Origin: Micromonospora sp. WMMD1128
Lineage (GTDB): Bacteria; Actinomycetota; Actinomycetes; Mycobacteriales; Micromonosporaceae
Assembly (NCBI RefSeq): GCF_027497235.1
Contig: NZ_CP114902.1
Location: 3,801,001 to 3,865,000, forward strand
Length of the DNA stretch: 64,000 nucleotides
Direction: 5' to 3'
Below, piece by piece: positions 1,754-33,630 of the stretch. The notes under the pieces are model-generated. The model was given only the letters and a program-made list of their open reading frames with translations, did not search any database and was not told where the DNA came from. Numbering within the stretch: the stretch's first letter is position 1; every line of letters starts with the position of its first letter. The position numbers and the translations under genes are program-made.

Positions 1754-1965
1754 AAATTTCAGCGTAGGAGCCCTCGGTCACCCGAGGCAGTCGTGAACCC
1801 GATCCCTGCCAGATCAAGGATCCGACCTATGCCGCCGCTCGGTGAAGACTCACTCCGGAAGTCGTCGACTCTTCGGGAGTGCACCAGGTCATCCCTGTTC
1901 AGCGGACCGCAACCCCGCACCCCGCATCAGCCGGGCCACCCGCTTGCCGCAGTGCCGCCGCGTCG

Positions 1966-2963
1966 ACCCGGACGCGGCGTCGATGCTGCTGGCGCAGTAC
2001 GGCGAGAGCGTGATGCGCCTGGCGTTGCGCGGCCTGGAGGGCAAGACGCTCGATCCGTACCTGGCGGGATGGCGTCGGCGGGTGGTACCGACGCTCGGCC
2101 ACCTGCCGGTCCGGCTCATCACCAACGGCGCGGTGGACCGGGCCGCGCACGGCTGGATCGCCGAGGGCTGCGGGCGGTCGACGGTGAAGAACAGCCTCGC
2201 CGTCCTGGTGCGGGTCCTGGAGCAGGCGGTGCGCGACGGTCTGATCGACCGCAACCCGGCGCGGCTGACCGGGTGGCAGCGGGAGTACCAGCGGGCCGAG
2301 GACGAGTTGGACAACCCGCGTTCCCTGGCGCCGCCGGACTGGACCGCGCTGTCCACCCTGGCTACGGCGCTGGTCGAGCGCTCGCACGGCCGCTACCTCG
2401 GCTGGGGTGAGGTGGTGAGGTTCGCGGCCGGCACGGCGGCCCGCATTGGCGAGGTGTCCGGCGTGCGCAAAGGCGACATCGACCGGGACACGTGGCTGTG
2501 GACGGTGCGCCGGCAGACCACCACCGGGCCGGGCGGCCTAGTCGACAAGGGCACCAAGGGCAAGCGGGCGCGGCAGGTGCCCATCATCGAGGAGTTGCGG
2601 CCGATGGTGGCCGCGAAACTCGATCGGATCGCCGAGGATGACGGCCGGCTGTTCGTCGGCCCGCGTGGCGGCCGGATCAGCACGGCGGTGCTGCGCGACG
2701 CGACGCACTGGGACGAGGTGGTCGGCTCGCTGGGCTTCGAGTACCTGAGGCGGCACGACCTGCGGCACACCGGGCTGACCTGGATGGCGGATGCCGGCGT
2801 GCCGGTGCACGTCCTACGGAAGATCGCCGGTCACGGCTCGCTGATGACAACTCAGCGGTATCTGCATCCGGATCGGCAGTCGATCCGGGCCGCCGGTGAG
2901 GCGCTGTCTTCGCATCTCACCGGCCTGCGGTCCCCAAATGGTCCCCAGCGGGGCATCGCATGA
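1966..2963 (+). pseudogene. 5'-truncated tyrosine recombinase (second copy of the AICE integrase)
   Basis: From VDPDAASM onward this reading frame matches residues 68-400 of the intact integrase at 32328-33530, with only about a dozen substitutions (for example LRSPNGPQRGIA at both C-termini). The catalytic residues are kept: Arg in AARIGEVSG, HDLRHTGL, GHGS, and Tyr in TTQRYLHP. The first 67 residues, which form the N-terminal arm-binding domain, are replaced by unrelated sequence (before about 1966), and no excisionase precedes it. The frame is open back to an ATG at 1842, so a chimeric protein could be made, but arm-site binding should be lost. It ends 28 bp before an att-like repeat at 2991, the same geometry as the intact integrase and the tRNA. 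This is the trace of an older, mostly deleted element at the same attachment site. Confidence 0.85.
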
Positions 2964-2990
2964 TCGCGCGAAATGCCCTTCTACCTGCGT

Positions 2991-3023
2991 CGGGACGGCC
3001 GGATTCGAACCGACGACCCCTTG
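2991..3023. repeat. att remnant: partial copy of the tRNA-Pro 3' end
   Basis: 33 bases identical to 33558-33590, the tRNA-Pro 3' end (acceptor and T arm). The match stops after ...ccccttg, where ttaccg replaces acccccag. Its spacing from the truncated integrase equals the spacing at the intact integrase and tRNA. It marks the left limit of the 3.0-21.1 kb island. Confidence 0.85.
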
Positions 3024-7383: not shown

Positions 7384-10300
7384 TTACTCTTCGCCTTCCG
7401 TTGAACGCCGGACGTATCGCAGTGGCATGCCCAATCTCTCCCAAATTGATACGAGATGGTCACCCTCCATCAGTATGGGAAGCAGCCGCTCGGATGTCCA
7501 CAGCACAAGCCTCCGCCCATCCATCGACTGGCGGAGTGGGTAAAATTCCGCGACGCATTTTTCGACCCTGAGGCGAAGTTCGGGGGGAAATCGATCGAAG
7601 ATCTTGCGCACTTGTGTGAGCTCGTCATCCCAGACCAGCATCCCAGCAATGAGGGGGGCAACAAAAGTGCTATCGGCGCAGCTATTCCTGAGGTGGTCGC
7701 TGAGCTCTCTATCGCTCACCAGATAAAGGTACTGCCCTAGCAAGAGCGAGTATGGCCACGAATCATCATGAACCCGATCCCGAACACTTGCGGCGTCCAG
7801 CAACGATCGAATATCGGCTCCAGTAAAGCCTTCTGGGTTCCGGGCGACATACTCCATCAGAAGGGAGGGCCTGAGGACTCGACTTTCAGAGTTCTTCAAT
7901 CCTCGAATAATTTCTATCGCGGCTGCGGTAGCGGTCGAGACGTGGGCGGATTCAGTCAACGCTCGCGCCGCACTCCCCGCGAAGGCCACATCAAGATCAT
8001 CACTGTCGATGGCGAAGCGGTTCCCTGCAACTCCAAAACCTGCGTTAATGATCGATGCTGCCGTGCTCTGGAACATCAGCGAATGTTTATGCACGAGGGG
8101 CTGAGCAGGGTCGTTTTCAGAAGAGCGCATAATAGCAGTCTCCGAGAAAACGGGTTTGATCTCGGAGAGATCCAAGTCTGGGACGCATCCCTGCCATATG
8201 TGGACCATCTTAGACCACCATTCGATTGGATCCACATCTGACGGCGCAATCGAGTCGATCTTTACAGCCCTGTCCTCTACCCCCAGGACTAACATGATCA
8301 GATTAGCCGTATAGAGAGCAAAACGTTGAAGCGATGACTCCCCTGAGGGAGAGTATGCAGCGAAGCGCCCACTTTCCCACCTACCCTCAGCCTGCCTGAG
8401 AAGAGTTCGAAGGATCTGCCGGATACCCTGACCTGCCGAGCCAGGCAAGGCACCATGCAATTGCGCCACGAACGGCAGAATCGCTGCCCCTCCGATGCTA
8501 AGCAATTGATGAGACAGTAGCGCATAGAGGCGATCGTCGTCCCAATTCTGCGACGATGGTCGATCCACTGATTCCCATAGATCAGTTAGCTCGTCCAGCG
8601 TCAGTCGCGCGATCAGATACTCGCTAAAAGTAGCGTGTAGAAACTCGTAGCTTCGACCCTCGAAGCCCTCATCTGCTTCCGCGGCGTGTATGAAAAAAAA
8701 CTTCCCTAACAACTGTCGCGCCGCCGTTAAAGCTGCGCCTCGTCTTTGCATCCGCCGCTGACGCATCGGTTGATCAAGAGCATCAAGGTCCGCCTGAAGC
8801 AAGTGTTCCTCGACGTAGTGTCGCCCACGATTGAACATGCCGAAGGCGGCAATCCCCAGGCGCCAGAGCTCGGCTCGCACCTGCTCCTCGCGCAGATCCG
8901 CTGGATCGAGATCCGGCACCTTCTGCAACTCGCGTTGTATGAACCGGCGGAGAATATCGCCGTAAATTTGTGCCGGCGTCGAGTTCTCCCCTACAGCGGG
9001 GAGATGGTTGGTTGCGCCATAAAGAATCAAAAGCAGCAGAAGCAGCGGCTGTTGGGCGATCTCGCCATACGAAAGAATCGTATCTGCGGACGGGATGCAT
9101 GACTGTCGTTCCAGATTCACCTGATCCCATATACCGAGGCAGGTCCGCACTTGCTCTGGGCGAAAGTTTTCTAACTTGATGACCAAGGACCCGATGGGAA
9201 TCCGGGCAAGGTCGGCCACCAGGGTCCGTGAAGTAACGACGACCGAGACGGGGTGGCCGGAAATCCGCTCGACGCGCTGAAATTCGACTACGTTGTGCAG
9301 ATAGTTTGATTCAGAATTTCCCGAGGCTTGCATAAATTCATCCAAGCCATCGATGAGCAGCACTCGGGTTGCGTCGACAGCGGACTCGCTTAGCTCAGTC
9401 CATGAGACACGTCCGTTGGTCGTTTTATCGAGAACACCTGAAACCTGTTGATGGATGGGAGCGGTCGGATCGGACACCTGACGCAGTGGCACACGCGCCA
9501 CCGCGTAAGCGTCACCGCCGGATAAACGCGCTGCACAAACCTTGGTAAACATGCTCTTCCCGGCCCCTGGCAGACCTAAGACCACAAGCGGCCTTTGGTG
9601 ACTACGAGGCGAGGAGAAATAGGCCGCCAGGAAGGTGTCCAGATCACTGCCCCATTCGGCGGATTCCCACCAGTTGTCGTCTGCGGGTCGACACTTTTCA
9701 TCCATAACCACCGAACGAAACGCTGGTGTGAGGTAGCCCTCCTGAACCGTCGGGATTCGAAGCTGGGCCAGATCGTCGGCTGAATCGGTGACAACCAATG
9801 GCTCCAAAAGCACTGCCCGGTTTACAGCAGCATTTACTTCACGAGTCCGATTCCTAGCGCCTTCGGCGTCACGGGGGAGCGACCTTACTAATTCTTCGAG
9901 ACGGCTCAAAGCCTCGCTTGAGCGCTTGACTGCGCTCTGAGTTGCATCACTCTCGCCCAACGCCGCCCAGATCCCGAACTCGGGAACCACAGCGGCGAGC
10001 GATTTATACTCCGCTTCGTAGCGCCGGACTGCCCGGCTTACAACATCACGAACTAACGGATCGGTAGCTCGCACCGAATCAATCCGATGCCAAACTTCGA
10101 AGTTCTGCAAGAAAGCGACGCAGTGCAGGGCCAGATTTTGAAAAAGCGGCTTGATCACCTCGTCGCGGTTGGCTCGAAATCCGCAGCCCGCCCACGGCAG
10201 CTCAATAGGAGCGTTCATCAGGCTCCGCTGAAGGCCATCCTTTGCGAGGTCCGGCTGAGCGTCGCCGGTGAGGCGGCGTTTGTCGTCTTCCGTGAGGCCG

Positions 10301-10623
10301 ACCTTCTCGCACACTGGCCCGACGATCTCACGGAATGCGGCGAAAAATGCTCCGTACGCCAAAGCCGTGTGGGTTGCCGCGAGCACGTCGGAGCGGTCGG
10401 GAACACGTTTGCCCTTAAGGCGTGCGCGACCCGCTGCGGCGACCTCGCCTAGAGTCTTGATCAGCTCGTTCTTTTGATCAACCCAGCCCCAAGCCGCCAA
10501 CCCAAAGGGGCCGGTGACCAGTATGCCGACGCCAAGCAAGGTGTCTAGTGCCTTGAGCCACTTGCCGTCCGGTCCGGATAAGATCTCGCGTGCACCGTCA
10601 AGTGTGTACGGGGAGCGGGCCAC
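7384..10623 (-). CDS. NACHT-domain NTPase, probable anti-phage STAND protein
   Basis: 1,079 residues. Residues 1 to about 290 are an N-terminal helical domain with one hydrophobic stretch (LLGVGILVTGPFGLAAWGWV). The NACHT core follows: Walker A VVLGLPGAGKS near 347-357, Walker B RVLLIDGLDEF near 420-430, sensor VVVTSR near 461-466, then winged-helix elements (EIAQQPLLLLLLILYG) and FLHATFSEYLIARLTLDEL. About 400 residues of helical C-terminus probably form the sensor. Bacterial NACHT proteins are established anti-phage STAND NTPases; the N-terminal domain here is not one I can assign to a nuclease, protease or TIR effector. Codon use is visibly less GC-rich than the core genes, suggesting transfer. 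It is a single gene. Confidence 0.8.
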   Translation of the reverse strand: MARSPYTLDGAREILSGPDGKWLKALDTLLGVGILVTGPFGLAAWGWVDQKNELIKTLGEVAAAGRARLKGKRVPDRSDVLAATHTALAYGAFFAAFREIVGPVCEKVGLTEDDKRRLTGDAQPDLAKDGLQRSLMNAPIELPWAGCGFRANRDEVIKPLFQNLALHCVAFLQNFEVWHRIDSVRATDPLVRDVVSRAVRRYEAEYKSLAAVVPEFGIWAALGESDATQSAVKRSSEALSRLEELVRSLPRDAEGARNRTREVNAAVNRAVLLEPLVVTDSADDLAQLRIPTVQEGYLTPAFRSVVMDEKCRPADDNWWESAEWGSDLDTFLAAYFSSPRSHQRPLVVLGLPGAGKSMFTKVCAARLSGGDAYAVARVPLRQVSDPTAPIHQQVSGVLDKTTNGRVSWTELSESAVDATRVLLIDGLDEFMQASGNSESNYLHNVVEFQRVERISGHPVSVVVTSRTLVADLARIPIGSLVIKLENFRPEQVRTCLGIWDQVNLERQSCIPSADTILSYGEIAQQPLLLLLLILYGATNHLPAVGENSTPAQIYGDILRRFIQRELQKVPDLDPADLREEQVRAELWRLGIAAFGMFNRGRHYVEEHLLQADLDALDQPMRQRRMQRRGAALTAARQLLGKFFFIHAAEADEGFEGRSYEFLHATFSEYLIARLTLDELTDLWESVDRPSSQNWDDDRLYALLSHQLLSIGGAAILPFVAQLHGALPGSAGQGIRQILRTLLRQAEGRWESGRFAAYSPSGESSLQRFALYTANLIMLVLGVEDRAVKIDSIAPSDVDPIEWWSKMVHIWQGCVPDLDLSEIKPVFSETAIMRSSENDPAQPLVHKHSLMFQSTAASIINAGFGVAGNRFAIDSDDLDVAFAGSAARALTESAHVSTATAAAIEIIRGLKNSESRVLRPSLLMEYVARNPEGFTGADIRSLLDAASVRDRVHDDSWPYSLLLGQYLYLVSDRELSDHLRNSCADSTFVAPLIAGMLVWDDELTQVRKIFDRFPPELRLRVEKCVAEFYPLRQSMDGRRLVLWTSERLLPILMEGDHLVSIWERLGMPLRYVRRSTEGEE

Positions 10624-13038: not shown

Positions 13039-13250
13039 AGCCGGAGGTCTCATCGGAGCCACCTTGAGCCTATCCTGGGCATTGCCCCATGTCTGCCTAC
13101 AGCATCATGGAGATGAGCCGCCATCTGAGGCTTGTCTGCTGTGCAATATGCCGGCACCCTGGGACCCACGGGTGCGCACTTACGGCGGATGACGCGACAG
13201 AGGCGATCTGCAACGATGCCACCGTCGACAGTGACGGGAGGGAGCTGCAC

Positions 13251-13835
13251 GTGCTCGCCGCTTCGGTGTGGAACAGCTTGGAGTTCGCCAAGCTCGTCAT
13301 CGGCGGCATGGTTCCGGTCGCCGTTGCCGTGCTAGCTGCTGTCTTCAGCCGCGCGTTGAGGCGTGCCGAGAACCAGCAGTGGTTCAGCCAAAAGCTGGTC
13401 GAAAAGCGCATCGAGCTGCTCACTGCAGCCCTGCCTGACCTCAACGACTTGTTCTGCTACTTCACGTGGGTGGGCAACTGGAAGGAGCTTTCGCCACCCG
13501 AGATCCTGCTACGCAAGCGGCGACTCGATCGACTCTTCCATGCCAACAGCCCATTTTTTTCAACCTCGGCAGTAGCGGCGTACGACGCGTTCATCTCCGC
13601 CCTGTTCAAGACGTTCGTGGCCCCCGGGTCCAGCGCACAGCTACGTACGGGGCTGACGTCCCAGCACGGAAGCCGGGTGAAGGCATTCACGGAGTACTGG
13701 GAGCCCACCTGGGATGCGATGTTCACACAGGAAGCCGAACGGACGTCGCCCGAGGTCATCAAGGAACGGCACCAGGCGTTGACGGCCGCGCTCGGTTCCG
13801 AGATCGGCACACAGTCGGCACCGAGGGAAGCTTAA
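13251..13835 (+). CDS. single-TM membrane protein, first gene of an unrecognised three-gene operon
   Basis: 194 residues from GTG 13251, chosen because gggaggga lies just upstream; an upstream ATG at 13089 is in frame but its extension looks non-coding. The N-terminus has one transmembrane helix (LVIGGMVPVAVAVLAAVFSR), placing the rest in the cytoplasm. Next come QKLVEKRIELLTAALPDLND and LFCYFTWVGNWKELSPPEIL, a helical domain rich in aromatic residues (residues about 45-190). No enzyme motif is visible. The stop is 2 bp from the next ATG, so the three genes 13251-15501 are co-transcribed. A membrane anchor or effector role in a defence-like system is an inference from its location. Confidence 0.6.
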   Translation: MLAASVWNSLEFAKLVIGGMVPVAVAVLAAVFSRALRRAENQQWFSQKLVEKRIELLTAALPDLNDLFCYFTWVGNWKELSPPEILLRKRRLDRLFHANSPFFSTSAVAAYDAFISALFKTFVAPGSSAQLRTGLTSQHGSRVKAFTEYWEPTWDAMFTQEAERTSPEVIKERHQALTAALGSEIGTQSAPREA

Positions 13836-13837
13836 AC

Positions 13838-14488
13838 ATGATCGTTCAATGGTGTTGCAAGGGCTTGGCGAAAATCGACAGTGGGGCCGTACAGCAGATA
13901 CTTACCGACCCGACGGGTCTGCGCTGCCGAGACTGGGAGTCGCATTGGCAACGGGGTGGGGGCTTCCCCGTGGCCGCCGCCATACAGCGCCTAACCGAGG
14001 AGAACCTCGACCGCCACGTCAACAATTTCAGCAGCGTGGAGCCAACCACGGGACGCAAGTTCTGCGATGTAACGCCCTTCATCTCACTGTCAGCCGGTTG
14101 CGTCGACCGCGACGTGGCGGCCAGGACCAACATCACCCATCGCGCGCTTCGCACCGCTCTGGAGTTCGCCACCACCGACTACGCAGACCCTGCAAAGCCC
14201 GCGTGCCCCGGCTGGGTCCTCTATTGCTACGTCCTCGTTGGATCCAACCCAGCCGTCCGGATCCCGACGGTCGCGGAAGAGATCCGGGAGCTGAACCATG
14301 GCCGCGCATATTCCGGCTGGTACTGGCAGGGCGAGGTGGCGGCCAAGCTGCACATCCCCTCCGCACAGATCCTCTGCGCAGAGCGGTACGAACCTGCGCC
14401 GAGTGGCCGGCTCAGGCTCACCGATCTCCTGCTGAACCTTGACTTCTGTCACCCTGCCGCGCTGCTAGCGGAACGGAGCATGCTGTGA
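13838..14488 (+). CDS. possible ADP-ribosyltransferase-like protein, second gene of operon
   Basis: 216 residues from ATG 13838, 2 bp after the preceding stop. Suggestive motifs: WQRGGGFPVAAAIQRL; then DVTPFISLSAG, resembling the TPF(V/I)S-x-S strand of the ADP-ribosyltransferase fold; then a buried strand GWVLYCYVLVG; and finally GWYWQGEVAAKLHIPSAQIL, where Gln-x-Glu followed by a V...IP..I strand resembles the third ART motif. A central helix (ALRTALEFATTDY) separates them. This is fold guessing by eye: substrate, the first motif (Arg or His) and activity are unproven. The stop overlaps the next GTG by 4 bp. Confidence 0.5.
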   Translation: MIVQWCCKGLAKIDSGAVQQILTDPTGLRCRDWESHWQRGGGFPVAAAIQRLTEENLDRHVNNFSSVEPTTGRKFCDVTPFISLSAGCVDRDVAARTNITHRALRTALEFATTDYADPAKPACPGWVLYCYVLVGSNPAVRIPTVAEEIRELNHGRAYSGWYWQGEVAAKLHIPSAQILCAERYEPAPSGRLRLTDLLLNLDFCHPAALLAERSML

Positions 14489-15501
14489 CGCTGCCGGAGC
14501 GATTGTGGGGGGCACTGCGGCTCGACCCGTCAACGGTCGCGGCTCGAGCACGCTTCTATCGGGCATACGCTGAGTTGGAAGAGCCACCGTTCGACGTGCG
14601 CGACTTGGCTGAGTTAATGCGCGATCGCCCTCCTCCCAGAGGCTCTGGCCCGCGCGTCATCAACCTCATAGGTAAGGAGGCAGGGGCCGTCGGTCAAAGC
14701 CTGCGGGAAATCCAACGCCCCCGTGCCGGGAAGCCCTGGGTGCGGCTGGCCGAGGCCGCGGATGCCTTGAGAAACGCCGCCGTTGCTGAACTGCTTCTCG
14801 ACGTACAAACGGGCCGGGGGACTTTGCTAGAGGCCAGCCGCGGCTACAGTGAGCTCGGGTTGCCATTCGGTGACTTCCTTGCCGTCGCTGCAACGGGAGA
14901 CAGAGAGCGATCGATCTCGGCCGCCGAACTTCTCGGCGTCCTGCTGTCCGATTCCCAGATCACAGACACCGGACGACACGGCTCAGCAGCACTTGCAACG
15001 CCTGCGCAGCAGCGCTACCTATTGCTCACGGCGGCCCCCGACGCTACCGACCTGTGGCCGCGGCTGGCTGAGGCGCCGCAGGCGCACCAGACCGCGGCGG
15101 TCGGTGCAACATCCCAGCCCTTCTCGACCTGGTGGCGGCTCGGTGGCCTGCTCAGCCGCCTGGACGCCGACGCCGACGCCGACGGGATCAGACGCGAACT
15201 GACACGGATCATCGCCGAACTCTCCGAGGCACACGGCCGGCAACTGCAGCTCGCCGCAGCTGATGATCACCACTGGTCGACCGGACGCGCCCAGACGGAC
15301 TTGATCGATCTCGACTTGGCCGGCGCAGTCGCCATATCCGCGCGGATCTTGCGGCAGCGGGAAATCCGTCCATGGCGGTTCGAGAGCGATTTCCCCAAGC
15401 TGTCGCCGCTGGCGAGCATCTCGCTCCAGATCGGCCTTCAGCTCGGCGACGACGCCCCACCATCCGATGACTACCTGGGTGCCCACACGAGCGCCTGGTG
15501 A
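14485..15501 (+). CDS. hypothetical helical protein, third gene of operon
   Basis: 338 residues from GTG 14485, overlapping the previous stop (GTGA), which implies translational coupling. Composition is Ala/Leu/Arg-rich and mostly alpha-helical (LAEAADALRNAAVAELLLDV, AELLGVLLSDSQI, GIRRELTRIIAELSEAHGRQ), with no membrane segment, signal peptide or recognisable motif. It could be a regulatory or antitoxin-like partner of the preceding protein, or an adaptor; neither can be shown from sequence. The operon ends here, and the next gene (TPR-PIN) is convergent. Confidence 0.55.
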   Translation: MTLPERLWGALRLDPSTVAARARFYRAYAELEEPPFDVRDLAELMRDRPPPRGSGPRVINLIGKEAGAVGQSLREIQRPRAGKPWVRLAEAADALRNAAVAELLLDVQTGRGTLLEASRGYSELGLPFGDFLAVAATGDRERSISAAELLGVLLSDSQITDTGRHGSAALATPAQQRYLLLTAAPDATDLWPRLAEAPQAHQTAAVGATSQPFSTWWRLGGLLSRLDADADADGIRRELTRIIAELSEAHGRQLQLAAADDHHWSTGRAQTDLIDLDLAGAVAISARILRQREIRPWRFESDFPKLSPLASISLQIGLQLGDDAPPSDDYLGAHTSAW

Positions 15502-15801: not shown

Positions 15802-18800
15802 CTAATCGCGGTAGGTCAGCACCACTCGCGACGTCGTAGCCTTGTCGGATTCCGACGACAAGGCGACCATCGCCATCATCATCGACATGGCGAACGCGTG
15901 TCCGTGGCCGGCGACGAGGTTGCGGTAGACGCTGGTGGCCACTGCCTCGAACGGATCGGTCACCAATCGGCGCCGCGCGATCCCCGCGCGTACACCCCGC
16001 AGCACCGCGGGCAGCCGGTCGGCGTTCATCCATGGCTCCGCCATGCACCGACTCAGAAGGACACGCAGGTTGGTACCGGCGCTGCCATCATCGGTGGTGA
16101 TCCGGACCAGTCCGATCGCGGTGGCGGAGACCCAGCCTTCAACTTGGTCCGGTCCGGCGGTCGCTGCGTGAGCCAGCATGGAGAGCACGAAATCGATTAC
16201 TGCGGCCGGGTCGGTCCAGGTCGCGGGCCGAGTGAGCGCGAACGCCACCCCGCGCGGTGCTCGGCCGTCCATCGCGGCGGCGAGGTCGAACGTTGCCCGA
16301 TCGAATCCGAGGTCGGTGAAGTAGTTGGTAAGCAGGATAGCCTCGGCCGCCGCACGGATCTCGCGTGGAATCTGCCCTTGGATCTGCAGGTCACGGATAA
16401 GGTCGACCGTGCCGAAGGTCGCGACGCCCATGCCGGCGGCGATTAACCGCAGGCGGTGGTCGTCGCACCAGAACGGGATGTGTTCAGAAGCCGCCATGTC
16501 GAGCGACGACATCCACTCGAACTTCCGGTCGGCGTCTGGGAACGTCGTGAACCTGGTCCACGGACGGCGTGCTGCCTGGTGCAGAATCGAGCATACCGTC
16601 GTGGCCTGCTCGGCGAGCGAGTCGGCGACGGACTGCTCGATCACCGTGACGGTCGGCCGCCCAGCGTCAGGATCCCATCCCGTGGACATGGTCGAACGCA
16701 AGCCGAGGGACTCCTGCCCCCGGACCGCATCGCGGTAAGCCTCATCGGTTGCGCGAAGCTGGGCGAAACCTGAGATGAGCTGCGAACGCAGGTGCGGGTC
16801 GAGCAGCGCCAAAGTGTGAGCTGCAGTGACATCGATCACGGTCACCTTGTTCCAGGCCACTGCAGCCGCGGCCCTGCCGTGCATCTCTCCTGCCAGGGCA
16901 TGGGCATTGACGAAGCCGGCGCCGCGCTTCAGCGACGCCTCTGTGTAGGAGGAATCGAAGGCGGTAGCCAGCATGCCTAATGGCAGGTTCGCCTTGTCGA
17001 GTTCCTTAATGACTTCGCCGAGTGACTCGTGACGTGCGCGAAGGTCGGGCGCGAGGGATCCGAGCGGGTCGTCCTCCGAGACCGACATCCGGCGGAACAC
17101 CCTGCTTTCGGGGAAGCGTTCGGTGTAGTCGAACATGGCCGTATGCAGCGCGGCGATGTCCTCGTCGGTCGTCGAGAGCGCCTGGCGCCGCAGGCCGAAG
17201 AAAATCTGGGCGATGAAGACGCCCATCAGCTGCTCGTCGTCCGGCCACCTGGCCATGGTGGACAGTGCGCGAGGCACGAACTGTGTGCTGGTGTCGCGGC
17301 GGGCCACCAGGCCAATCCAGGTCATGGCGTCGTGGCGGTCCCGGGGGGCGACCGGATCGCCGTCGGGGGTGAGGGCGTTCCACGCACCGTCGCTATCGCC
17401 GCGCCGAACCAACGCGTGCACGAGCGCCCAGCGGGCGTTCGCGGCGTCGGGGTCGAGCGTCACCAGGTTGCGGGCCTGCTCGATCGCCAGGTCCCACGAC
17501 CCCTCGTCGGTGTGGATTTCGAATATCAACGCCCGCGTATCGAACTGTCCGGCCCACTCGGCTCCGCCCATGGTCAACGCGCGTTCGGCGGCCCGTTTCG
17601 CGGCTTCCGGATCCTCGGCGGCCCGCAGATGACGCGCCGAGGTCAGCATCAGGCCGGGGTCGTTCCACCGGCATGCGGCTTCCTTGAGCACCTCGGCGGC
17701 CAGCAAGTGCTCCCCGGCCTGCCCGTACCGCTCCGCAAGCAACACCGCAAGTGCAAAGTGGTCCGTGGCGCCGGCCCGCAGAGCCTCAATCGTGCCCCCC
17801 TGCGCGCCCATGGCGCGCTGAACAACCCGGATTTCGCGCACCAACTCGGGATGTTCCTGCTCGACCCCGGCAAGATCCGGTAGCTCGCCACCGACCTGGG
17901 CCAGCCCTCGAACCGCCACCAGAAAGTCGGCCCTGGACTCCGCGGCGGCCAGCGCGGACTGCCACGCCGCAGCGGCGACCGCGTTTTCGGCGGTGCCGGT
18001 CAGCTCCACGGCCTCGATTTCCGCGACAACGAATGGGATGCCCAGTTCGACGGCCAACGCCCGGGCCCGGCCGTACTCGCCGGTGCCGGCAAGCAGTTCT
18101 GCCTGCTCTCGCCGCAGCCGGGGGTCAGTGACCTCCTGCGGCCAGGCGTCACCGTCCGGCTGCTGCTCGATGAGCGTCCGCGCCTGCGCCACCTTGCCGC
18201 CGAGCACGTACGCCTTGACCGCGACCAGGATCGCCGCGACGCTGTCGCCGTGCCACGACCGACGGACGTTACGGGCCTTGATCGCCAGCGCGGCAGCCCG
18301 TTCGGTGTCGGCCAGCCTGTTCACGGTCTCCCCGTACCGCGCCCGGTACAGCAGCAACTCAGCGGCGTACAGCGCTGATCCGCTCGCGCCCTCGATGTCA
18401 GCAGCGGCGAGCGCGAACTTCACTCCCCGGTTGATGTCGTCGGCTCGAGCGTAAAGCCGCGCCAGCAGTTGCAGCCGCAACGCCTCATCGGCGTGCGACG
18501 ATGTCTTCCACGCGGACAAGACATCGATGGCCTGATCCCAGTCCTCGCGGTGGACAAACAGCAGCCCTTGCGCAAGCGTGTGTTCCCAGGCTGCACCGAC
18601 GAGGATCTCGTTGACGTCAGCGGAGGCGTCCTCCGGCAGGCACATCGCCTGCCGGGCCTTCCAATAGCCGGCCGGGTACGCTCCACCCTCCACGGCCATC
18701 CCGAACAGGCGGGCTGCCGTCGGATTCTGGCTGTAGTCCGAGGCGAGTTCAGCCAGCCAGCAGATTACCTCCACGGGTGCATCAGCGAACCAGTCCGGGG

Positions 18801-19245
18801 GCTGCTCGCACCACTGCCGCAGGACGGCGCCGCGGTCATCGGCCGTGACGATGACCTGTACCAGCTTCTCCACGTCTGGCCAGAACTCGCGGATCTCGAT
18901 CGCCCGATCGCGGCACCACGGCTGGAGCATGGTGACCTGGTCGCCGAACACGTTGGTGGCCGACATCCGGCTCAGGATAGAGCGGGTGTTGTCCTCCACC
19001 ACAGCACGGGTAGACGCTGCCGCGGCACGGGTGTGTTCTGCCTGCCACTCGCCGGCGATGGCGGACGCGGTGGCCGGGTCGTGTGCGCGTACGAAAGCGG
19101 CCAGAACAAGAACGAGGACCTGCTCGGCGTCGGATCGCCGCTGGTCGCCGCTGTCGCCCAGCAGAGCGGCCAGACGGTCGAGGATCTCGTCGGCCACCTC
19201 GGCGCCACCCCGGGCCAGCTGGCTCTGCACCTCCGGCAACACCAT
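15802..19245 (-). CDS. giant TPR/alpha-solenoid protein with C-terminal PIN-type nuclease domain
   Basis: 1,147 residues from ATG 19245 (MVLPEVQSQLARGG). Residues 1 to about 760 are repeating helical pairs of TPR type (for example HLLAAEVLKEAACRWNDPGL, SWDLAIEQARNLVTLDPDAA). From about 800 the pattern changes to a PIN domain: TVIDVTAAHTLALLD (first Asp near 805), RATDEAYRDAV, and IPFWCDDHRLRLIAAGMGVA followed by TFGTVDLIRDL (near 923-953), the typical C-terminal acidic loop and GT strand. Residues 970-1147 are helical. PIN domains are metal-dependent ribonucleases, so an RNA-cleaving effector with a solenoid sensor is plausible. An IS5-like element sits 26 bp upstream and removes the native promoter; a GTG at the junction suggests the original N-terminus may have been a few codons longer. 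Confidence 0.7.
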   Translation of the reverse strand: MVLPEVQSQLARGGAEVADEILDRLAALLGDSGDQRRSDAEQVLVLVLAAFVRAHDPATASAIAGEWQAEHTRAAAASTRAVVEDNTRSILSRMSATNVFGDQVTMLQPWCRDRAIEIREFWPDVEKLVQVIVTADDRGAVLRQWCEQPPDWFADAPVEVICWLAELASDYSQNPTAARLFGMAVEGGAYPAGYWKARQAMCLPEDASADVNEILVGAAWEHTLAQGLLFVHREDWDQAIDVLSAWKTSSHADEALRLQLLARLYARADDINRGVKFALAAADIEGASGSALYAAELLLYRARYGETVNRLADTERAAALAIKARNVRRSWHGDSVAAILVAVKAYVLGGKVAQARTLIEQQPDGDAWPQEVTDPRLRREQAELLAGTGEYGRARALAVELGIPFVVAEIEAVELTGTAENAVAAAAWQSALAAAESRADFLVAVRGLAQVGGELPDLAGVEQEHPELVREIRVVQRAMGAQGGTIEALRAGATDHFALAVLLAERYGQAGEHLLAAEVLKEAACRWNDPGLMLTSARHLRAAEDPEAAKRAAERALTMGGAEWAGQFDTRALIFEIHTDEGSWDLAIEQARNLVTLDPDAANARWALVHALVRRGDSDGAWNALTPDGDPVAPRDRHDAMTWIGLVARRDTSTQFVPRALSTMARWPDDEQLMGVFIAQIFFGLRRQALSTTDEDIAALHTAMFDYTERFPESRVFRRMSVSEDDPLGSLAPDLRARHESLGEVIKELDKANLPLGMLATAFDSSYTEASLKRGAGFVNAHALAGEMHGRAAAAVAWNKVTVIDVTAAHTLALLDPHLRSQLISGFAQLRATDEAYRDAVRGQESLGLRSTMSTGWDPDAGRPTVTVIEQSVADSLAEQATTVCSILHQAARRPWTRFTTFPDADRKFEWMSSLDMAASEHIPFWCDDHRLRLIAAGMGVATFGTVDLIRDLQIQGQIPREIRAAAEAILLTNYFTDLGFDRATFDLAAAMDGRAPRGVAFALTRPATWTDPAAVIDFVLSMLAHAATAGPDQVEGWVSATAIGLVRITTDDGSAGTNLRVLLSRCMAEPWMNADRLPAVLRGVRAGIARRRLVTDPFEAVATSVYRNLVAGHGHAFAMSMMMAMVALSSESDKATTSRVVLTYRD

Positions 19246-19371
19246 CCACTTGTGCAGCTCGCGAGTCTTCAGAGGGTGGTTCGGTAGCTTTCGTCCATTG
19301 TGGGTTCGGCCCGGCATGTGAAGGTGAGCCGTGGTCGTAACCGGTGACGTGGTGGCCGCGTTGGGCTGATC

Positions 19372-20214
19372 ATGGGTGAGCGTGCGGCGTATCCGAGTGA
19401 CCTGACCGATGAGCAGTGGGCGGTGGTCGGGCCGTTCCTGCAGGCGTGGAAGGACCGGCACCCGTCGGTGTCGGGGCATCAGGGCCGTTACGAGTTGCGG
19501 GAGATCGTGAACGCGATCTTCTACCAGAACCGGACCGGGTGCCAGTGGGCGTACCTGCCGCACGACCTGCCGCCGAAGTCGGCCACCTACTACTACTTCG
19601 CCCTGTGGCGTGATGACGGCACCGACCAGGTGATTCACGATCTGCTGCGCTGCCAGGCACGGGAGAAGGCCGGCCGCCGGGAGGATCCGACCGCGGTGGT
19701 GCTGGACACTCAGTCGATTCGGGCGGCCAACCACGTCCCGGCCGCCACGACCGGCAAGGACGCCGCGAAGAAGGTGCCGGGCCGTAAGCGGGGCCTCGCG
19801 GTCGACGCCCTCGGGTTGATCATCGCGGTGGTGGTCACCGCCGCGTCGGTCACCGACAACGCGATCGGCGTGAAGCTGCTGGACAACGTCCTCGCGCACA
19901 CGCCGACGGTGACCAAGGCATGGGTCGACGCCGGGTTCAAAGACGACGTGCAGATCCACGGCGCGGTCCGAGGTGTCGACGTGGAGCAGGTCCTGCGGTC
20001 CGACACGACCGCCGGGTTCGTGCCGATCAAGCGGCGGTGGGTGGTCGAGCAGACCAACGGCACGCTGATGCTGCACCGCCGCCTGGTCCGCGAGTACGAA
20101 AGCCGACCCGCCTCCGCGGTGTCCCACACCTGGTGGGCCTCGACAGCGAACCTCATCCGCCGGCTGACCGGCACCGCCACCACGTCCTGGCGCGACCCAG
20201 GCCACCAGCGGTGA
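19372..20214 (+). CDS. IS5-family DDE transposase
   Basis: 280 residues from ATG 19372. The N-terminal DUF4096-like region (YPSDLTDEQWAVVGPFL, GRYELREIVNAIFYQNRTGC) is followed by the DDE domain: Asp in AVVLDTQSI, Asp in KAWVDAGFKDD, Glu in RRWVVEQTNGTL with the Y-(2)-R-(3)-E type spacing of IS5. Full length and apparently intact. Its stop overlaps the GTG of the passenger gene. Confidence 0.93.
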   Translation: MGERAAYPSDLTDEQWAVVGPFLQAWKDRHPSVSGHQGRYELREIVNAIFYQNRTGCQWAYLPHDLPPKSATYYYFALWRDDGTDQVIHDLLRCQAREKAGRREDPTAVVLDTQSIRAANHVPAATTGKDAAKKVPGRKRGLAVDALGLIIAVVVTAASVTDNAIGVKLLDNVLAHTPTVTKAWVDAGFKDDVQIHGAVRGVDVEQVLRSDTTAGFVPIKRRWVVEQTNGTLMLHRRLVREYESRPASAVSHTWWASTANLIRRLTGTATTSWRDPGHQR

Positions 20215-20630: not shown

Positions 20631-20697
20631 CCCCACCAACCAGGGCCGCTAACGAACCACCAAGTCCGCATCGGACATAGCCTCCCGAACCACCCTC

Positions 20698-20982
20698 TCA
20701 CCCAACAATGTTCGCCGTCAGTGGCGCCAGGCACGCGCCGAAGCCGACCTCGACTGGGTCACCCCGCACACCTTCCGAAAGACCGTCGCCACCCTGATCA
20801 AGGAGGAGACCAACACCAAGAGCGCGGCGGCGCAGCTCGGGCACTCCAGCGAGGAGGTCACGGACACCTACTACATCGCCAAGCCGGTACAAGCCCCGGA
20901 CGTGTCCGGCATCCTCGAACGGCTCGGCAGCCACCCGAGCAGCCAAGGATCACCATCAAAAGAGAACGATGCACATCAGTGA
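20698..20982 (+). pseudogene. C-terminal fragment of a second, unrelated tyrosine integrase
   Basis: In the plus frame, SPNNVRRQWRQARAEADLDW, then VTPHTFRKTVATLIKEETNT, AAAQLGHSSEEVTDTYYIAK and PVQAPDVSGILERLGS, ending at TGA 20980. It contains the H-x-x-R box (HTFRKT), the LGHSS box and the catalytic Tyr (TYYIAK). The sequence differs clearly from the integrases at 1966 and 32328. The N-terminal two-thirds are missing, and the IS5-like element abuts the fragment exactly. It probably belonged to the island now spanning 3-21 kb or to an element lost from it. Confidence 0.75.
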
Positions 20983-21002
20983 CGAACTTGGTTGCCGCAC
21001 CA

Positions 21003-21040
21003 CGTAAACGGGGGGTTTTCGGGGGGCGGTTCAAATCTCC
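21003..21040. other. possible att/core sequence beside the integrase remnant
   Basis: The sequence aaacggggggttttcggggg runs into cggttcaaatctcc just after the integrase remnant. The G-run and TTTTC elements resemble 3141-3167, and ggttcaaatctcc (21028-21040) recurs at 11301-11312 in the tRNA-like structure. Such G-run palindromes next to integrase stops are often att-associated; here it is only suggestive. Confidence 0.3.
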
Positions 21041-21055
21041 ATAGAAGAAAGTCAA

Positions 21056-21095
21056 AGCCCTGACCAGCATTTCCGCTGGTCAGGGCTTTTTCTTT
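21056..21095 (+). terminator. Rho-independent terminator
   Basis: Perfect 13-bp stem agccctgaccagc / gctggtcagggct with a 6-nt loop, followed by tttttcttt. This is one of the few classical terminators in the window, placed between the integrase remnant and the att repeat at 21099. Confidence 0.85.
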
Positions 21096-21098
21096 GGT

Positions 21099-21139
21099 CG
21101 GGACGGCCGGATTCGAACCGACGACCCCTTGACCCCCAG
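21099..21139. repeat. attL of the AICE: 41-bp copy of the tRNA-Pro 3' end
   Basis: 41 bases identical to 33558-33598 (tRNA-Pro from acceptor to anticodon loop); two further bases upstream also match. It diverges at ggacg versus tcaag. It is the distal junction left by integration of the AICE at the tRNA gene. Confidence 0.92.
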
Positions 21140-21363
21140 GACGTCGCGGTAGGCGTTGGCGCACGTCAGCAACGGCGCGCCCGTCGGCACGTCGTCGGCG
21201 GTTGCGCTGTCCGTGTCCGTCCGGGTTGGACGTGTGGTCCCCCGCTGGTCCCCGGTGCCGCTGTTGGTTTCCGTAGCGCTCCAACGCATTCAACCGTTGG
21301 GTGTGGTCGTCCGCAGCACCTGCGGGTGCCGGCTTCCCGTCGCGCAGGCTTCGCCCTGCCGGG

Positions 21364-21427
21364 CCGGGCCTGCCCGGTCCAGGTGGAGCGCCCCACCGGA
21401 CGTACGACCTGGACCGGGCAGGCCCGG
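21364..21427. repeat. 21-bp perfect inverted repeat in the non-coding end of the AICE
   Basis: Left arm 21364-21384 (ccgggcctgcccggtccagg, t) and right arm 21407-21427 are exact complements around a 22-nt loop. A second hairpin, gtagggcc-gga-ggccctac, lies at 21536-21554 among repeats of ccggaggc. The 500 bp from 21140 to 21643 hold no convincing gene. Strong secondary structure in an AICE suggests a replication origin, single-strand origin or clt transfer locus, but this is inference. Confidence 0.5.
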
Positions 21428-21643
21428 TCTGGCTGCCTGTGGTGTGCGGCGGGTGGCACCGGATCGGCCGGGCATCCCAGAGCGGCCCGGGTCCAAGGGC
21501 GGGTAGCCCTTGCCGCCGGAGGCGCGCTCCGGGTCGTAGGGCCGGAGGCCCTACCCGCCGGAGGCAACGAGTCGATTCGCGAGCATCTGTGCTGGACCGT
21601 AGGCACCAGACTGTCCTACGTGCGAGCGAAGCGGAAGCGGTGG

Positions 21644-23050
21644 ATGGCCGGATGGCGGAAGCATGCACTGCGAAGGATGGATCAGCCGCTACGAGCGATG
21701 CGCTGGTGGCCCGTGACGCTAGCGGCGGTGGCGTTGGTGCTGGGTGGCGGCATTGCGGCGATGTGGCTGCTGGGTGTGTGGTCGCGGACGCCAACGAGCG
21801 TCGCTGACCCAGAGCGGTTGCGCTTGGACCGGATCAAGGTGGCATTGACCGTGGCAGCCGGGATGGCTGCTGGTGTGACGTTGCTTATGACGCTTCGACG
21901 GCAGGCGTGGAGCGAGCACGCCCAGCAATTCACGCAGGCCGACGCTGTGGAGCAGCGCATAACGTCGCTGTATGTAGCGGCTGCAGAGCAGCTCGGCAGC
22001 GACAAGGCAGCAGTCCGGCTGGCGGGGTTGTACGCGTTGGAGCGATTGGGCCAAGATAACTCGAAGCTGCGCCAGACAGTTGTAGAGGTACTTTGTGCGT
22101 ATCTGCGCATGCCGTACAGGCTCCCGACCGAGGTGTTGCGATCGAACACTAGCGTTTTATCGCAGATTTTCGCTCCGGACGAGCAGACACCGAAGGTGGA
22201 AGAGCAGCAGTCGAGGCGCGAGGAACTTCAAGTACGACTGACGGCACAACGACTGATCGCCAACCACTTATGCAGGCACGCTGGTCCAGATAGTTCAGAG
22301 CCAGCCGCATACTGGCGCGGGGCCGCCGGCGAAAAAATGAGCCTCGACCTGATAGGTGCCGCACTTCTCGACATTAACTTCTCCGACCTAAAGGTGGATC
22401 GGCTCGACTTATCTGGGGCTCATTTTTACGGAAATGCAAACTTGGCCGGAATGCAGGTTCAAGGAGATGCAAACTTTGCAGGGGCGCATTTCTTCGGAAA
22501 ATTGAGAATGATTGGGGCAGAGTTCAGGGACGACGCCCACCTGAAGGGAGTTCAGTTCTACGAAGACGCGAACCTTAGCGCGACGCTTTTCCACGGCGCG
22601 GCAGACTTCAGCGGAGCACACTTCCATGGGGCAGCGGAGCTTGCCATGGCACAATTTCTGGGAACAGCGGTCTTCAGCAGCACACACTTCCATGGACATG
22701 TGGACCTAAAAGCGGCAAAATTTTGCAGATATGCAATTCTTTTGGCGACCCAATTCGACGGACCTGCAGAGCTGGATGCAGCGCACTTTTACATGCATGT
22801 GGACTTAGGCGAAGCAAAGCTTTGTAACGCGTTCAATCTAACAGGAACTCAATTCGAATATTTTCCGAATATGCTTGACGCGCGGGCTACCCCGTCTGCT
22901 CAGCTCCCCCTAGGGTGGGCGCTCGACACTCACATAGGTGCGGCATCCGACTTGCGGCCGGTCGTTCCAGATCCCAGCGTTGCGGCCTTAAACGATGGCC
23001 AGGGTTGGTCGGCACGTGATAGCGGCGAGGCTGGCAGCGAAACCGGCTAG
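21644..23050 (+). CDS. membrane-anchored pentapeptide-repeat protein
   Basis: 468 residues from ATG 21644 (ggaag upstream; ATG 21677 is the alternative). Two N-terminal transmembrane helices (WPVTLAAVALVLGGGIAAMW, VALTVAAGMAAGVTLLM) are followed by a cytoplasmic helical region (QRITSLYVAAAEQLGSDKAA, VRLAGLYALERLGQD), then from about residue 230 a right-handed pentapeptide quadrilateral helix of A(D/N)(L/F)xx-like units (ANLAGMQVQGDANFAGAHFF, ADFSGAHFHGAAELAMAQFL). Such proteins are frequent cargo in actinobacterial elements; possible roles include DNA mimicry or scaffolding, unproven. The gene is noticeably AT-richer than its neighbours. Confidence 0.8.
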   Translation: MAGWRKHALRRMDQPLRAMRWWPVTLAAVALVLGGGIAAMWLLGVWSRTPTSVADPERLRLDRIKVALTVAAGMAAGVTLLMTLRRQAWSEHAQQFTQADAVEQRITSLYVAAAEQLGSDKAAVRLAGLYALERLGQDNSKLRQTVVEVLCAYLRMPYRLPTEVLRSNTSVLSQIFAPDEQTPKVEEQQSRREELQVRLTAQRLIANHLCRHAGPDSSEPAAYWRGAAGEKMSLDLIGAALLDINFSDLKVDRLDLSGAHFYGNANLAGMQVQGDANFAGAHFFGKLRMIGAEFRDDAHLKGVQFYEDANLSATLFHGAADFSGAHFHGAAELAMAQFLGTAVFSSTHFHGHVDLKAAKFCRYAILLATQFDGPAELDAAHFYMHVDLGEAKLCNAFNLTGTQFEYFPNMLDARATPSAQLPLGWALDTHIGAASDLRPVVPDPSVAALNDGQGWSARDSGEAGSETG

Positions 23051-23316: not shown

Positions 23317-23883
23317 ATGACGGGCGTGACGAGCCCTGATCCAGACGCGGAGTGGTGGACGACGTCGGAGGTCGCCGAGTACCTCGGCGTCCAGGTCGGC
23401 ACCGTTAGTTCCTACCGGAACCGCGGGCAGATGCCAGAGCCTGACAAGACGTTCGGCCGGACCCACCTGTGGCGCCCGCGAACGATCACGTCATGGCATG
23501 AAGGTCGCCCCCGGCCCGGGAGTCGCGCCGCTGACGTGAGCAACGGCCAGCCTTGGACCGTCCTCCAAGTCTCGACGGCGGTGGAGACGCGGGAGGCGGC
23601 CGTCGAGCTGGCGCGCCTCGTCGTTGAGGCGAGACTCGCGGCCGGCGCGCAGATCGTCGGGCCGGTCATCTCGGCCTTCTGGCACCAGGGCGAGTTCGGC
23701 ACGGGCGAGGAGTGGCAGCTTCTCCTGAAGACGCATGCCCAGCGCTTCGAGGACCTGCGGGCATTTCTCCAGGACAACCACCCTTGGCAGAACCCCGAGA
23801 TCGCGGCGGTGCCGGTCGTGATGAGTTCGGACGAGTACGCCGCCTGGGTCAGCAAGACGCTCCTGCTCGACGTGGAGCCGTAG
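23317..23883 (+). CDS. HTH-CutA fusion protein
   Basis: 188 residues (ATG 23317; GTG 23326 possible). Residues about 12-60 are a MerR/excisionase-type helix-turn-helix (EWWTTSEVAEYLGVQVGTVS, SYRNRGQMPEPDKTFGRTHL, WRPRTITSWHEGR). Residues about 78-188 match CutA1: TVLQVSTAVETREAAVELAR, LVVEARLAAGAQIVGPVISA, FWHQGEFGTGEEWQLLLKT, and FLQDNHPWQNPEIAAVPVVM ending YAAWV. CutA normally forms a trimeric ferredoxin-like fold implicated in divalent-metal tolerance. The conserved Cys of the AAC motif is replaced (AAGAQI). The fusion suggests a trimeric or metal- or metabolite-responsive DNA-binding protein. It lies convergent to the AICE regulator with a 3-bp gap. Confidence 0.8.
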   Translation: MTGVTSPDPDAEWWTTSEVAEYLGVQVGTVSSYRNRGQMPEPDKTFGRTHLWRPRTITSWHEGRPRPGSRAADVSNGQPWTVLQVSTAVETREAAVELARLVVEARLAAGAQIVGPVISAFWHQGEFGTGEEWQLLLKTHAQRFEDLRAFLQDNHPWQNPEIAAVPVVMSSDEYAAWVSKTLLLDVEP

Positions 23884-32106: not shown

Positions 32107-32331
32107 ATGAGTACCGATGCACTGGCAGCACCGGGCGTCCTGATGACCACAGAGGAACTTGCCCGGCTCGTGAAGGTCGACCCGTCCACCGTGCGTCGGT
32201 GGCGCACCGCCGACCCCGTCCAGGGGCCGGCGTTCATCCGGCTGTCCGCCCGGGTCGTCAAGTACGACCCGGAGGACGTGCGGGCGTGGCTGGGCCGGCA
32301 CCGCACCGATCCCGAGGAATCGGCTCGGTGA
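32107..32331 (+). CDS. xis: excisionase / AlpA-type HTH protein
   Basis: 74 residues from ATG 32107. A winged-helix excisionase (MTTEELARLVKVDPSTVRRW, RTADPVQGPAFIRLSARVVK, YDPEDVRAWL), the size and position of Xis in AICEs. It bends DNA at att to favour excision by the integrase. Its stop overlaps the integrase GTG (GTGA). Confidence 0.9.
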   Translation: MSTDALAAPGVLMTTEELARLVKVDPSTVRRWRTADPVQGPAFIRLSARVVKYDPEDVRAWLGRHRTDPEESAR

Positions 32332-33530
32332 CCACTCCCCTGCTCCCGATCGGCGTCGCCGTCTCCACCGACGTCGAGCACCGACCCGGCCGGCCGAACC
32401 CGTACCGTGCCCGGGTCCGGTGGGTCGATCCGGCTTCGGGACGACGCCGCTCCAAGTCGCAGGCGTTCGCGGACGCCGAGCAGGCGCAGACCTGGCTCGG
32501 CACCATGCAGCGCGCGGCGAGGGGCGGCGTCGACCCCGACGCGGCATCGATGCGGCTGGCGCAGTACGGCGAGAGCGTGATGCGCCTGGCGCTGCGCGGC
32601 CTGGAGGGCAAGACGCTCGACCCGTACCTGGCGGGCTGGCGTCGCCGGGTCGTGCCGACGCTCGGTCACCTGCCGGTGCGGCTGATCACCAATGGTGCGG
32701 TGGACCGGGCCGCGCACGGCTGGATCGCTGAGGGCTGCGGCCGGTCGACGGTGAAGAACAGCCTCGCCGTCCTGGTGCGGATCCTGGAGCAGGCGGTGCG
32801 GGACGGCCTGATCGACCGCAATCCGGCGCGGCTGACCGGGTGGCAGCGGGAGTACCAGCGGGCCGAGGACGAGTTGGACAACCCGCGTTCGCTGGCGCTG
32901 CCGGACTGGACGGCGCTGGCCACTCTGGCGGCGGCGCTGGTCGAGCGCTCGCACGGCCGGTACCCGGGCTGGGGTGAGGTGGTGATGTTCGCGGCCGGCA
33001 CGGCGGCCCGCATCGGCGAGGTGTCCGGCGTGCGCAAAGGCGACATCGACCGGGACACGTGGCTGTGGACGGTGCGCCGGCAGACCACCACCGGACCCGG
33101 CGGCCTGGTCGACAAGGGCACCAAGGGCAAGCGGGCACGGCAGGTGCCCATCATCGGCGAACTGCGGCCGATGGTGGCCGCAAAGCTCGACCGGATCACC
33201 GAGGATGACGGCCGGCTCTTCGTCGGCCCTCGCGGCGGCCGGATCAGCACGGCGGTGCTGCGCGACGCGACGCACTGGGACGAGGTGGTCAGCTCGCTGG
33301 GCTTCGAGTACCTGCGGCGGCACGACCTGCGGCACACCGGGCTGACCTGGATGGCGGATGCCGGCGTGCCGGTGCACGTCCTACGGAAGATCGCCGGTCA
33401 CGGCTCGCTGATGACGACTCAGCGGTATCTGCATCCGGATCGTCAGTCGATCCGGGCCGCCGGTGAGGCGCTGTCTTCGCATCTCACCGGCCTGAGGTCC
33501 CCAAATGGTCCCCAGCGGGGCATCGCATGA
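32328..33530 (+). CDS. int: tyrosine site-specific integrase of the AICE
   Basis: 400 residues from GTG 32328. N-terminal arm-binding domain (VRWVDPASGRRRSKSQAFAD, AEQAQTWLGTM), then a SAM-like core-binding domain (TLGHLPVRLITNGAVDRAAH), then the catalytic domain: Arg in GTAARIGEVSGVRKGDI, Lys region TKGKRARQVPI, HDLRHTGLTWMADAG, IAGHGSLMTT and Tyr in TQRYLHPD. It stops 27 bp before the att copy in tRNA-Pro. The truncated relative at 1966-2963 is almost identical. It catalyses integration at, and excision from, the tRNA 3' end. Confidence 0.95.
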   Translation: MTTPLLPIGVAVSTDVEHRPGRPNPYRARVRWVDPASGRRRSKSQAFADAEQAQTWLGTMQRAARGGVDPDAASMRLAQYGESVMRLALRGLEGKTLDPYLAGWRRRVVPTLGHLPVRLITNGAVDRAAHGWIAEGCGRSTVKNSLAVLVRILEQAVRDGLIDRNPARLTGWQREYQRAEDELDNPRSLALPDWTALATLAAALVERSHGRYPGWGEVVMFAAGTAARIGEVSGVRKGDIDRDTWLWTVRRQTTTGPGGLVDKGTKGKRARQVPIIGELRPMVAAKLDRITEDDGRLFVGPRGGRISTAVLRDATHWDEVVSSLGFEYLRRHDLRHTGLTWMADAGVPVHVLRKIAGHGSLMTTQRYLHPDRQSIRAAGEALSSHLTGLRSPNGPQRGIA

Positions 33531-33556
33531 TCACGCGAAATGCCCTTCCACCTGCG

Positions 33557-33630
<74 letters not shown>

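Follow-up and report, generated by a model that had tools for sequence, protein, structure and literature searches.

Three tightly coupled genes that match no named family, carried on a mobile island, raise the question of what they do together and whether all three belong together at all. We addressed this for an operon on the plus strand of Micromonospora sp. WMMD1128, lying in a window of 64,000 nucleotides (the whole stretch analysed; contig NZ_CP114902.1, positions 3,801,001 to 3,865,000) of a single-contig 6.8-Mb genome (G000:C1:3801001-3865000). The first gene, g1 (13251..13835), encodes a protein with one transmembrane (TM) segment and a conserved, helical-looking domain predicted to be cytoplasmic (family alignment A4). 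The second, g2 (13838..14488), encodes a protein of 216 residues without TM segment that is predicted to adopt an ADP-ribosyltransferase (ART) fold, and the third, g3 (14485..15501), an all-helical partner of 338 residues. We find that g2 and g3 form the constant core of this module, and that the membrane gene beside them is exchangeable.

A compact operon under purifying selection

An earlier note, made from the sequence of this DNA alone, had described an unrecognised operon with 2-bp spacing and a 4-bp overlap. The starts and stops agree: g1 ends at 13835 and g2 begins at 13838, and the g2 stop codon (14486-14488) overlaps the GTG start of g3 (14485-14487). The start of g1 is uncertain, with GTG 13251 behind GGGAGG and the frame open from an alternative ATG at 13089. 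No NCBIfam, PADLOC or PHROGs match was found for window g1, g2 or g3, and Pfam likewise names none of them, so that within these libraries the operon is indeed unrecognised. Codon comparison with two related loci shows that all three genes are under purifying selection and that g3 evolves fastest. The ratios of non-synonymous to synonymous substitution are about 0.15, 0.19 and 0.22 for g1, g2 and g3 against L012 (synonymous divergence > 1), and 0.10, 0.12 and 0.47 against the near twin L011.

g2 is predicted to be an ADP-ribosyltransferase

The earlier note had suspected an ART-like fold in g2 from two short elements, TPFISLSAG (residues 79-87) and QGEVAAKLHIP (residues 164-174). Both the predicted structure, compared by Foldseek, and the conservation of motifs support this fold, and the closest matches are secreted or Rhs-delivered toxins. 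Of the Arg/His, S-x-S and Glu triad that the note proposed, window g2 has the S-x-S and a putative catalytic Glu166, and predicted strand 1 bears a lysine. This residue, Lys8 (13859..13861, plus strand), is K in 99, R in 14 and a gap in 8 of 121 aligned relatives. On predicted strand 2, Ser83-Leu84-Ser85 (14084..14092, plus strand) is nearly invariant in the same alignment (S83 in 121/121, S85 in 117/121). Among the 24 loci described below, S83 is always kept, and the position of S85 holds Ser in 15, Thr in 4 and Ala in 5. Residues 159-166 (14312..14335, plus strand) form a loop resembling the ADP-ribosylating turn-turn (ARTT) loop, S-x-W-x-x-Q-G-E, which ends in Glu166. The window loop, SGWYWQGE, fits the published ARTT pattern xx-phi-xx-[E/Q]-x-E. 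Conservation in the 121 relatives is again high (aromatic residue 121/121, [E/Q] 120/121, final E 120/121).

We describe g2 as of R-S-E type and do not file it as a member of the R-S-E (ARTC) group, because the strand-1 Arg is replaced by Lys8, whose equivalence to that Arg was judged by topology only, residues not being superposed. When a profile of the g2 family was run against the sequences of the PDB, no ART was retrieved, and none of 33 scanned g2 proteins has a Pfam match at E<=0.01. In the predicted structure, g2 starts at its first ART strand with nothing ahead of it. The hydropathy scan detected no membrane segment in window g2 or g3, and marginal ones in 3 of 24 ARTs and 2 of 23 g3 proteins.

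The ART and its helical partner are found together

We collected 24 distinct loci: besides the window, two peptide patterns located 19 in GTDB contigs, and a family search supplied four more. They range across Actinomycetota (Micromonospora, Actinoplanes/Paractinoplanes, Streptomyces, Actinokineospora, Amycolatopsis, Kutzneria, Lentzea and Planotetraspora) and two Proteobacteria (Mesorhizobium and Hydrogenophaga). g3 directly follows the ART in all 24; L025 is truncated by the contig end, and the two genes lie -4 to +1 bp apart in the 23 loci where this could be measured. With window g3 as the only query, tblastn recognised g3 in 20 of the 23 loci outside the window, and that of L026, L029 and L036 was assigned by position and profile. 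The profile was built from the same loci, hence six were left out in turn; all six were recovered (E from 1e-5 for L029 to 1e-83 for L036).

The ART occurs in 10 of 354 genomes of the family sample and in one of 394 of a class-wide sample, the source genome alone. Strong g3 matches (E<=2.2e-72) occur in the same 10 family genomes and weak partial ones in two others; several of the 10 contributed sequences to this profile, and scoring was confined to the top candidates of each genome. On these counts the g2-g3 pair is rare, patchy and inseparable in the sample examined.

The model of window g3 is all-helical and mostly confidently folded. The remark of the earlier note that this protein matches nothing extends to the family: none of the 28 g3 proteins scanned has a Pfam match at E<=0.01, and no named DNA-binding domain was found.

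The membrane partner is exchangeable

That all three genes would recur together, as the earlier note had anticipated, holds for the pair and not for g1, which is found upstream of the ART in only 5 of 24 loci (the window, L011, L012, L013 and L033). Its one membrane segment is predicted at residues 15-33. With one Lys or Arg in the 15 residues before this segment and four after it, the rest of g1 is predicted to be cytoplasmic. Window g1 has no Pfam or NCBIfam match at E<=1; two distant g1 relatives match DUF6249 below the Pfam cut-off, and the source label 'DUF4760 domain-containing' on one g1 relative (P0155) was not confirmed by the Pfam scan.

The commonest neighbour of the ART-g3 pair is instead a receiver-domain protein, in 14 of 24 loci. 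It lies upstream of the ART in five (L014, L021, L026, L029 and L034) and downstream of g3 in nine (L015, L016, L017, L018, L020, L022, L023, L024 and L028). All five receivers tested match Response_reg, L022 above the Pfam cut-off (E 3e-8) and L014, L021, L026 and L029 below it. Leave-one-out on the receiver profile recovered 4 of 4, and L021 was found although absent from the profile. Among 13 of the 14 receivers, hydropathy places a membrane segment in 11 and calls none in L016 and L018; the charge pattern predicts that the receiver domains lie on the cytosolic side. The same 13, when aligned, all keep the acidic pair, and 11 keep the phospho-acceptor Asp (Asn in the other two). None has the conserved Lys of canonical phospho-receivers at the aligned position. 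Neither g1 nor a receiver was found in L019, L025, L027, L036 and L038.

g1 and the receivers are alignable over the TM region only. On the ART tree, rooted at its midpoint, all g1 loci fall into one clade (support 100/96), and the loci closest to it, L034 and L014, both hold a receiver in the same upstream slot. Most simply, g1 would therefore have displaced the receiver once, and the membrane gene of the module is exchangeable. At position 164, g2 has Gln in all five g1 loci and Glu in the 19 others, an association read from these 24 loci that represents one event on one branch; further Gln-bearing relatives occur in the alignment of 121.

Some membrane genes of these kinds also occur in other company. 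In L060-L069, from other genomes of the family, receivers of the ART-linked type have no ART or g3 profile match in the stretches examined; the best of them, L060, scores 207 bits, inside the range of ART-linked receivers. A g1-like membrane gene stands divergent to a SIR2-like (SIR2_2) gene at L059:6070-7658, without ART or g3, and g1 may more generally accompany NAD+-related conflict genes as an accessory. In Hydrogenophaga, a gene for a PAS hybrid histidine kinase adjoins the receiver gene of the ART operon in divergent orientation (L029:6928-9998).

The operon lies in a tandem array at tRNA-Pro

The mobile island proposed by the earlier note can be delimited more sharply, as a segment bounded by copies of the 3' end of a tRNA-Pro (ggg) gene (33556..33630, minus strand), the presumed attachment (att) site of the array. 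Att-like repeat 1 (2955..3023) differs from 33522-33590 at 2 of 69 positions, and 35 bp of it (2989-3023) are identical to the tRNA-Pro 3' end. Repeat 2 (21097..21139) is identical over 43 bp to 33556-33598, at the same 3' end. An integrase gene or fragment (Phage_integrase; 1842..2963, plus strand) ends at repeat 1, and the tyrosine integrase gene of a pSAM2-like element (32199..33530, plus strand) lies beside the tRNA. The former, left of 3023, is a second integrase copy: 1957-3023 is 94.8% identical to 32524-33590 over 1067 bp. From this arrangement we conclude that a tandem array at the tRNA carries the operon as cargo.

The 18-kb piece between repeats 1 and 2 holds the operon, an ATP-grasp gene, two transposases, a transposase-type helix-turn-helix (HTH) gene and, as the earlier note had it, a NACHT and a TPR-PIN gene on either side of the operon, both on the minus strand. 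These are a NACHT NTPase gene with an NNH7 domain (7384..10623) and an open frame with TPR and PIN-TPR-GreABC domains (15802..20205), the 5' part of which overlaps an opposite-strand transposase gene. TPR-GreAB-PIN is a conflict system described in PMC8195603. No integrase gene was noticed in this segment, which may therefore be moved by the enzymes of its neighbours. Between repeat 2 and tRNA-Pro lies the pSAM2-like element, with FtsK-like, RepSA and tyrosine integrase genes. Of nine relatives compared at tRNA-Pro, L072 has sequence like 20695-21139 directly at the tRNA (86% over 449 bp) and two others have shorter such pieces, as expected if the pSAM2-like element inserted later.

The tandem pSAM2-like array has near-identical integrase ends (1842-2963, 2955-3023, 21097-21139, 32199-33630). 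At its 5' end the TPR-GreAB-PIN gene adjoins a transposase of IS4/5 type (19372-20214, plus strand) and may therefore lack an N-terminal effector domain or have it interrupted. Inside the integrative element, a pentapeptide-repeat protein (21326-23050) adjoins repeat 2. A single open frame (23317-23883) combines a predicted HTH with a CutA1 domain.

Comparison with known systems

DarTG resembles the module in joining an ART toxin to a partner gene. DarG carries a macrodomain that removes ADP-ribose, whereas the Pfam scan and the all-helical model reveal no macrodomain in g3. Pierisin/Scabin/ScARP and Rhs TreX type toxins, which are secreted or injected enzymes, are among the best fold matches to g2; pierisin, scabin and ScARP share the loop Gln of window g2. 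A type II toxin-antitoxin system of RES-Xre type, in which a RES ART is paired with an HTH antitoxin, does not fit either, as the 33 g2 and 28 g3 proteins lack any Pfam match; RES ARTs have Y and N where g2 keeps S and E.

CmdTAC (PMC11618068) is likewise a three-gene intracellular ART operon with partner proteins, used against phage. It differs in that CmdT is a diphtheria-type ART with an inferred catalytic Tyr, whereas the module ART has S-x-S and [E/Q]-x-E; CmdA is partly unstructured, whereas g3 is mostly folded and helical; and CmdC is SecB-like, whereas the third gene here encodes a membrane protein. No SecB-like chaperone was recognised, window g1 having one TM segment and no Pfam or NCBIfam match and the receivers matching Response_reg instead. 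Receivers in STAND/MoxR-type conflict systems have been proposed to act without histidine kinases (PMC8195603, PMC7159879), and the combination of a membrane receiver, an ART and a helical partner is absent from the descriptions consulted there. We found no description of the module in the portions of the literature searched (including PMC7159879, PMC8195603, PMC13092281, PMC9503650, PMC11618068 and PMC11281641), though an earlier one may exist. Seen as an effector with partners, the module varies on ART systems already known, CmdTAC among them, and is set apart by its helical partner and putative membrane gate.

Proposed function and alternatives

We give about even credence to the module being a mobile ADP-ribosyltransferase system that acts on its own cell; its probable role is that of a toxin or immune switch. 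g2 would be a cytosolic R-S-E type ART that modifies an intracellular target using NAD+, and g3 would bind it and hold it inactive until it is called for. The membrane component, which is g1 in the window and a receiver in most relatives, would anchor or trigger the complex, its cytoplasmic domain passing on an envelope or infection signal that frees the ART and stops growth. The degenerate receiver may respond to a ligand rather than to phosphate, as predicted for other conflict receivers in PMC8195603. Action inside the own cell is argued by the absence of anything before the first ART strand and by the predicted cytosolic position of the partner domains. The constant g2-g3 coupling suggests that g3 controls the ART, and the presence of a membrane partner points to a trigger near the envelope. 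A new defence or toxin-antitoxin system, as the earlier note supposed, would be consistent with the linkage, the patchy distribution and the att-flanked island.

Several observations weigh against a self-acting ART system. NAD+ binding by g2 is not guaranteed, because the basic residue of strand 1 is Lys, never Arg, in all 24 loci and the second Ser of S-x-S is replaced by Thr or Ala in nine. The fold matches from Foldseek have modest TM-scores (TMq no higher than 0.50 in the first 50 matches), and no structural match to g3 reveals its mode of action. Five of 24 loci show no membrane partner (L025, truncated, among them), so that the module can do without it or it works in trans. In two of seven genomes g1 is present and the ART is not, with no ART or g3 profile match in the 13 kb around it, and similar receiver proteins stand alone elsewhere. 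Few relatives adjoin recognisable defence genes. The flanks were read by eye in 18 loci; defence genes were recognised in L026 only, and confirmed there. HsdR and HsdM directly follow the module in Mesorhizobium, and a defence context is clear only there and in the window. The L021 neighbour is presumably an antitoxin-like gene, and the surroundings of Streptomyces L016 and L018 are what we take to be amino-acid-biosynthesis and recombination genes. Single-protein searches of IMG/VR, plasmids and phages, with ARTs and also with the receiver protein, found no relatives: nothing matched the window and L029 ARTs among 72,556 plasmid records, or the L022 ART among 50,697 phage records.

These last negatives also count against a g2-g3 toxin-antitoxin addiction pair that stabilises the integrative element, with the membrane gene incidental. 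Such a pair would account for g2-g3 being the only constant part in 24 of 24 loci, five of them with no membrane partner found, and for the att-flanked position of the window copy. Usual antitoxins are small, unlike g3, which is large, is modelled with confidence over most of its length and lacks a named DNA-binding domain; a membrane-type gene beside the pair in 19 of 24 loci (no TM called in two) also argues against it, and we consider it quite unlikely. A module for signalling rather than poisoning is a less distant prospect, though still an improbable one: the ART would modify one host protein upon membrane input, with g3 as scaffold or substrate adaptor and the receiver as input domain. 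DraT-type regulation is a precedent for ART-based signalling. The frequency of receivers among the neighbours, their similarity to Response_reg, the retained Asp in 11 of 13, the hybrid histidine kinase next door in Hydrogenophaga and the ordinary surroundings of some loci, read by eye, all speak for it. A phosphorelay is nevertheless doubtful because none of the 13 receivers has Lys at the Lys position and two carry Asn instead of the phospho-Asp. The sporadic distribution (10/354 and 1/394), the carriage of the window copy by an integrative-element array and the lack of a named hydrolase domain in either partner that would reverse the mark argue in the same direction.

That g2 instead depletes NAD+ as a glycohydrolase, labelling no target, is about as improbable as the addiction pair. 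ART-fold NADases exist, such as the ART-fold Rhs NAD(P) glycohydrolase family reported in a 2026 paper, but the substrate-facing loop keeps its aromatic and [E/Q] positions almost without exception, as would be expected of an acceptor-recognising transferase. That the operon encodes a polymorphic toxin, secreted or injected, together with an immunity protein has very little chance of being right, even though the closest folds belong to such toxins: nothing stands in front of the ART domain of g2, g1 and the receiver domains point to the cytosol by charge, and no secretion genes were noticed among the listed window genes, in which no search aimed at them was made.

Implications for ART-based systems

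A further, rather unlikely possibility is that of a membrane-gated intracellular ART family in which the input module and a target-facing residue are exchanged together as a cassette around a fixed ART-g3 core. In one branch, g1 would have displaced the membrane receiver and Glu164 become Gln, so that sensor and substrate specificity would change together; the receiver would be a kinase-independent, ligand-sensing switch that releases the ART at the membrane. Few intracellular ART modules are understood, and the known ones had unexpected targets, DNA for DarT and mRNA for CmdT. The module described here is directly testable with two or three genes. If true, the combination of a conserved ART, a folded partner of its own and a membrane gate that can be swapped would give a known type of effector a new wiring.
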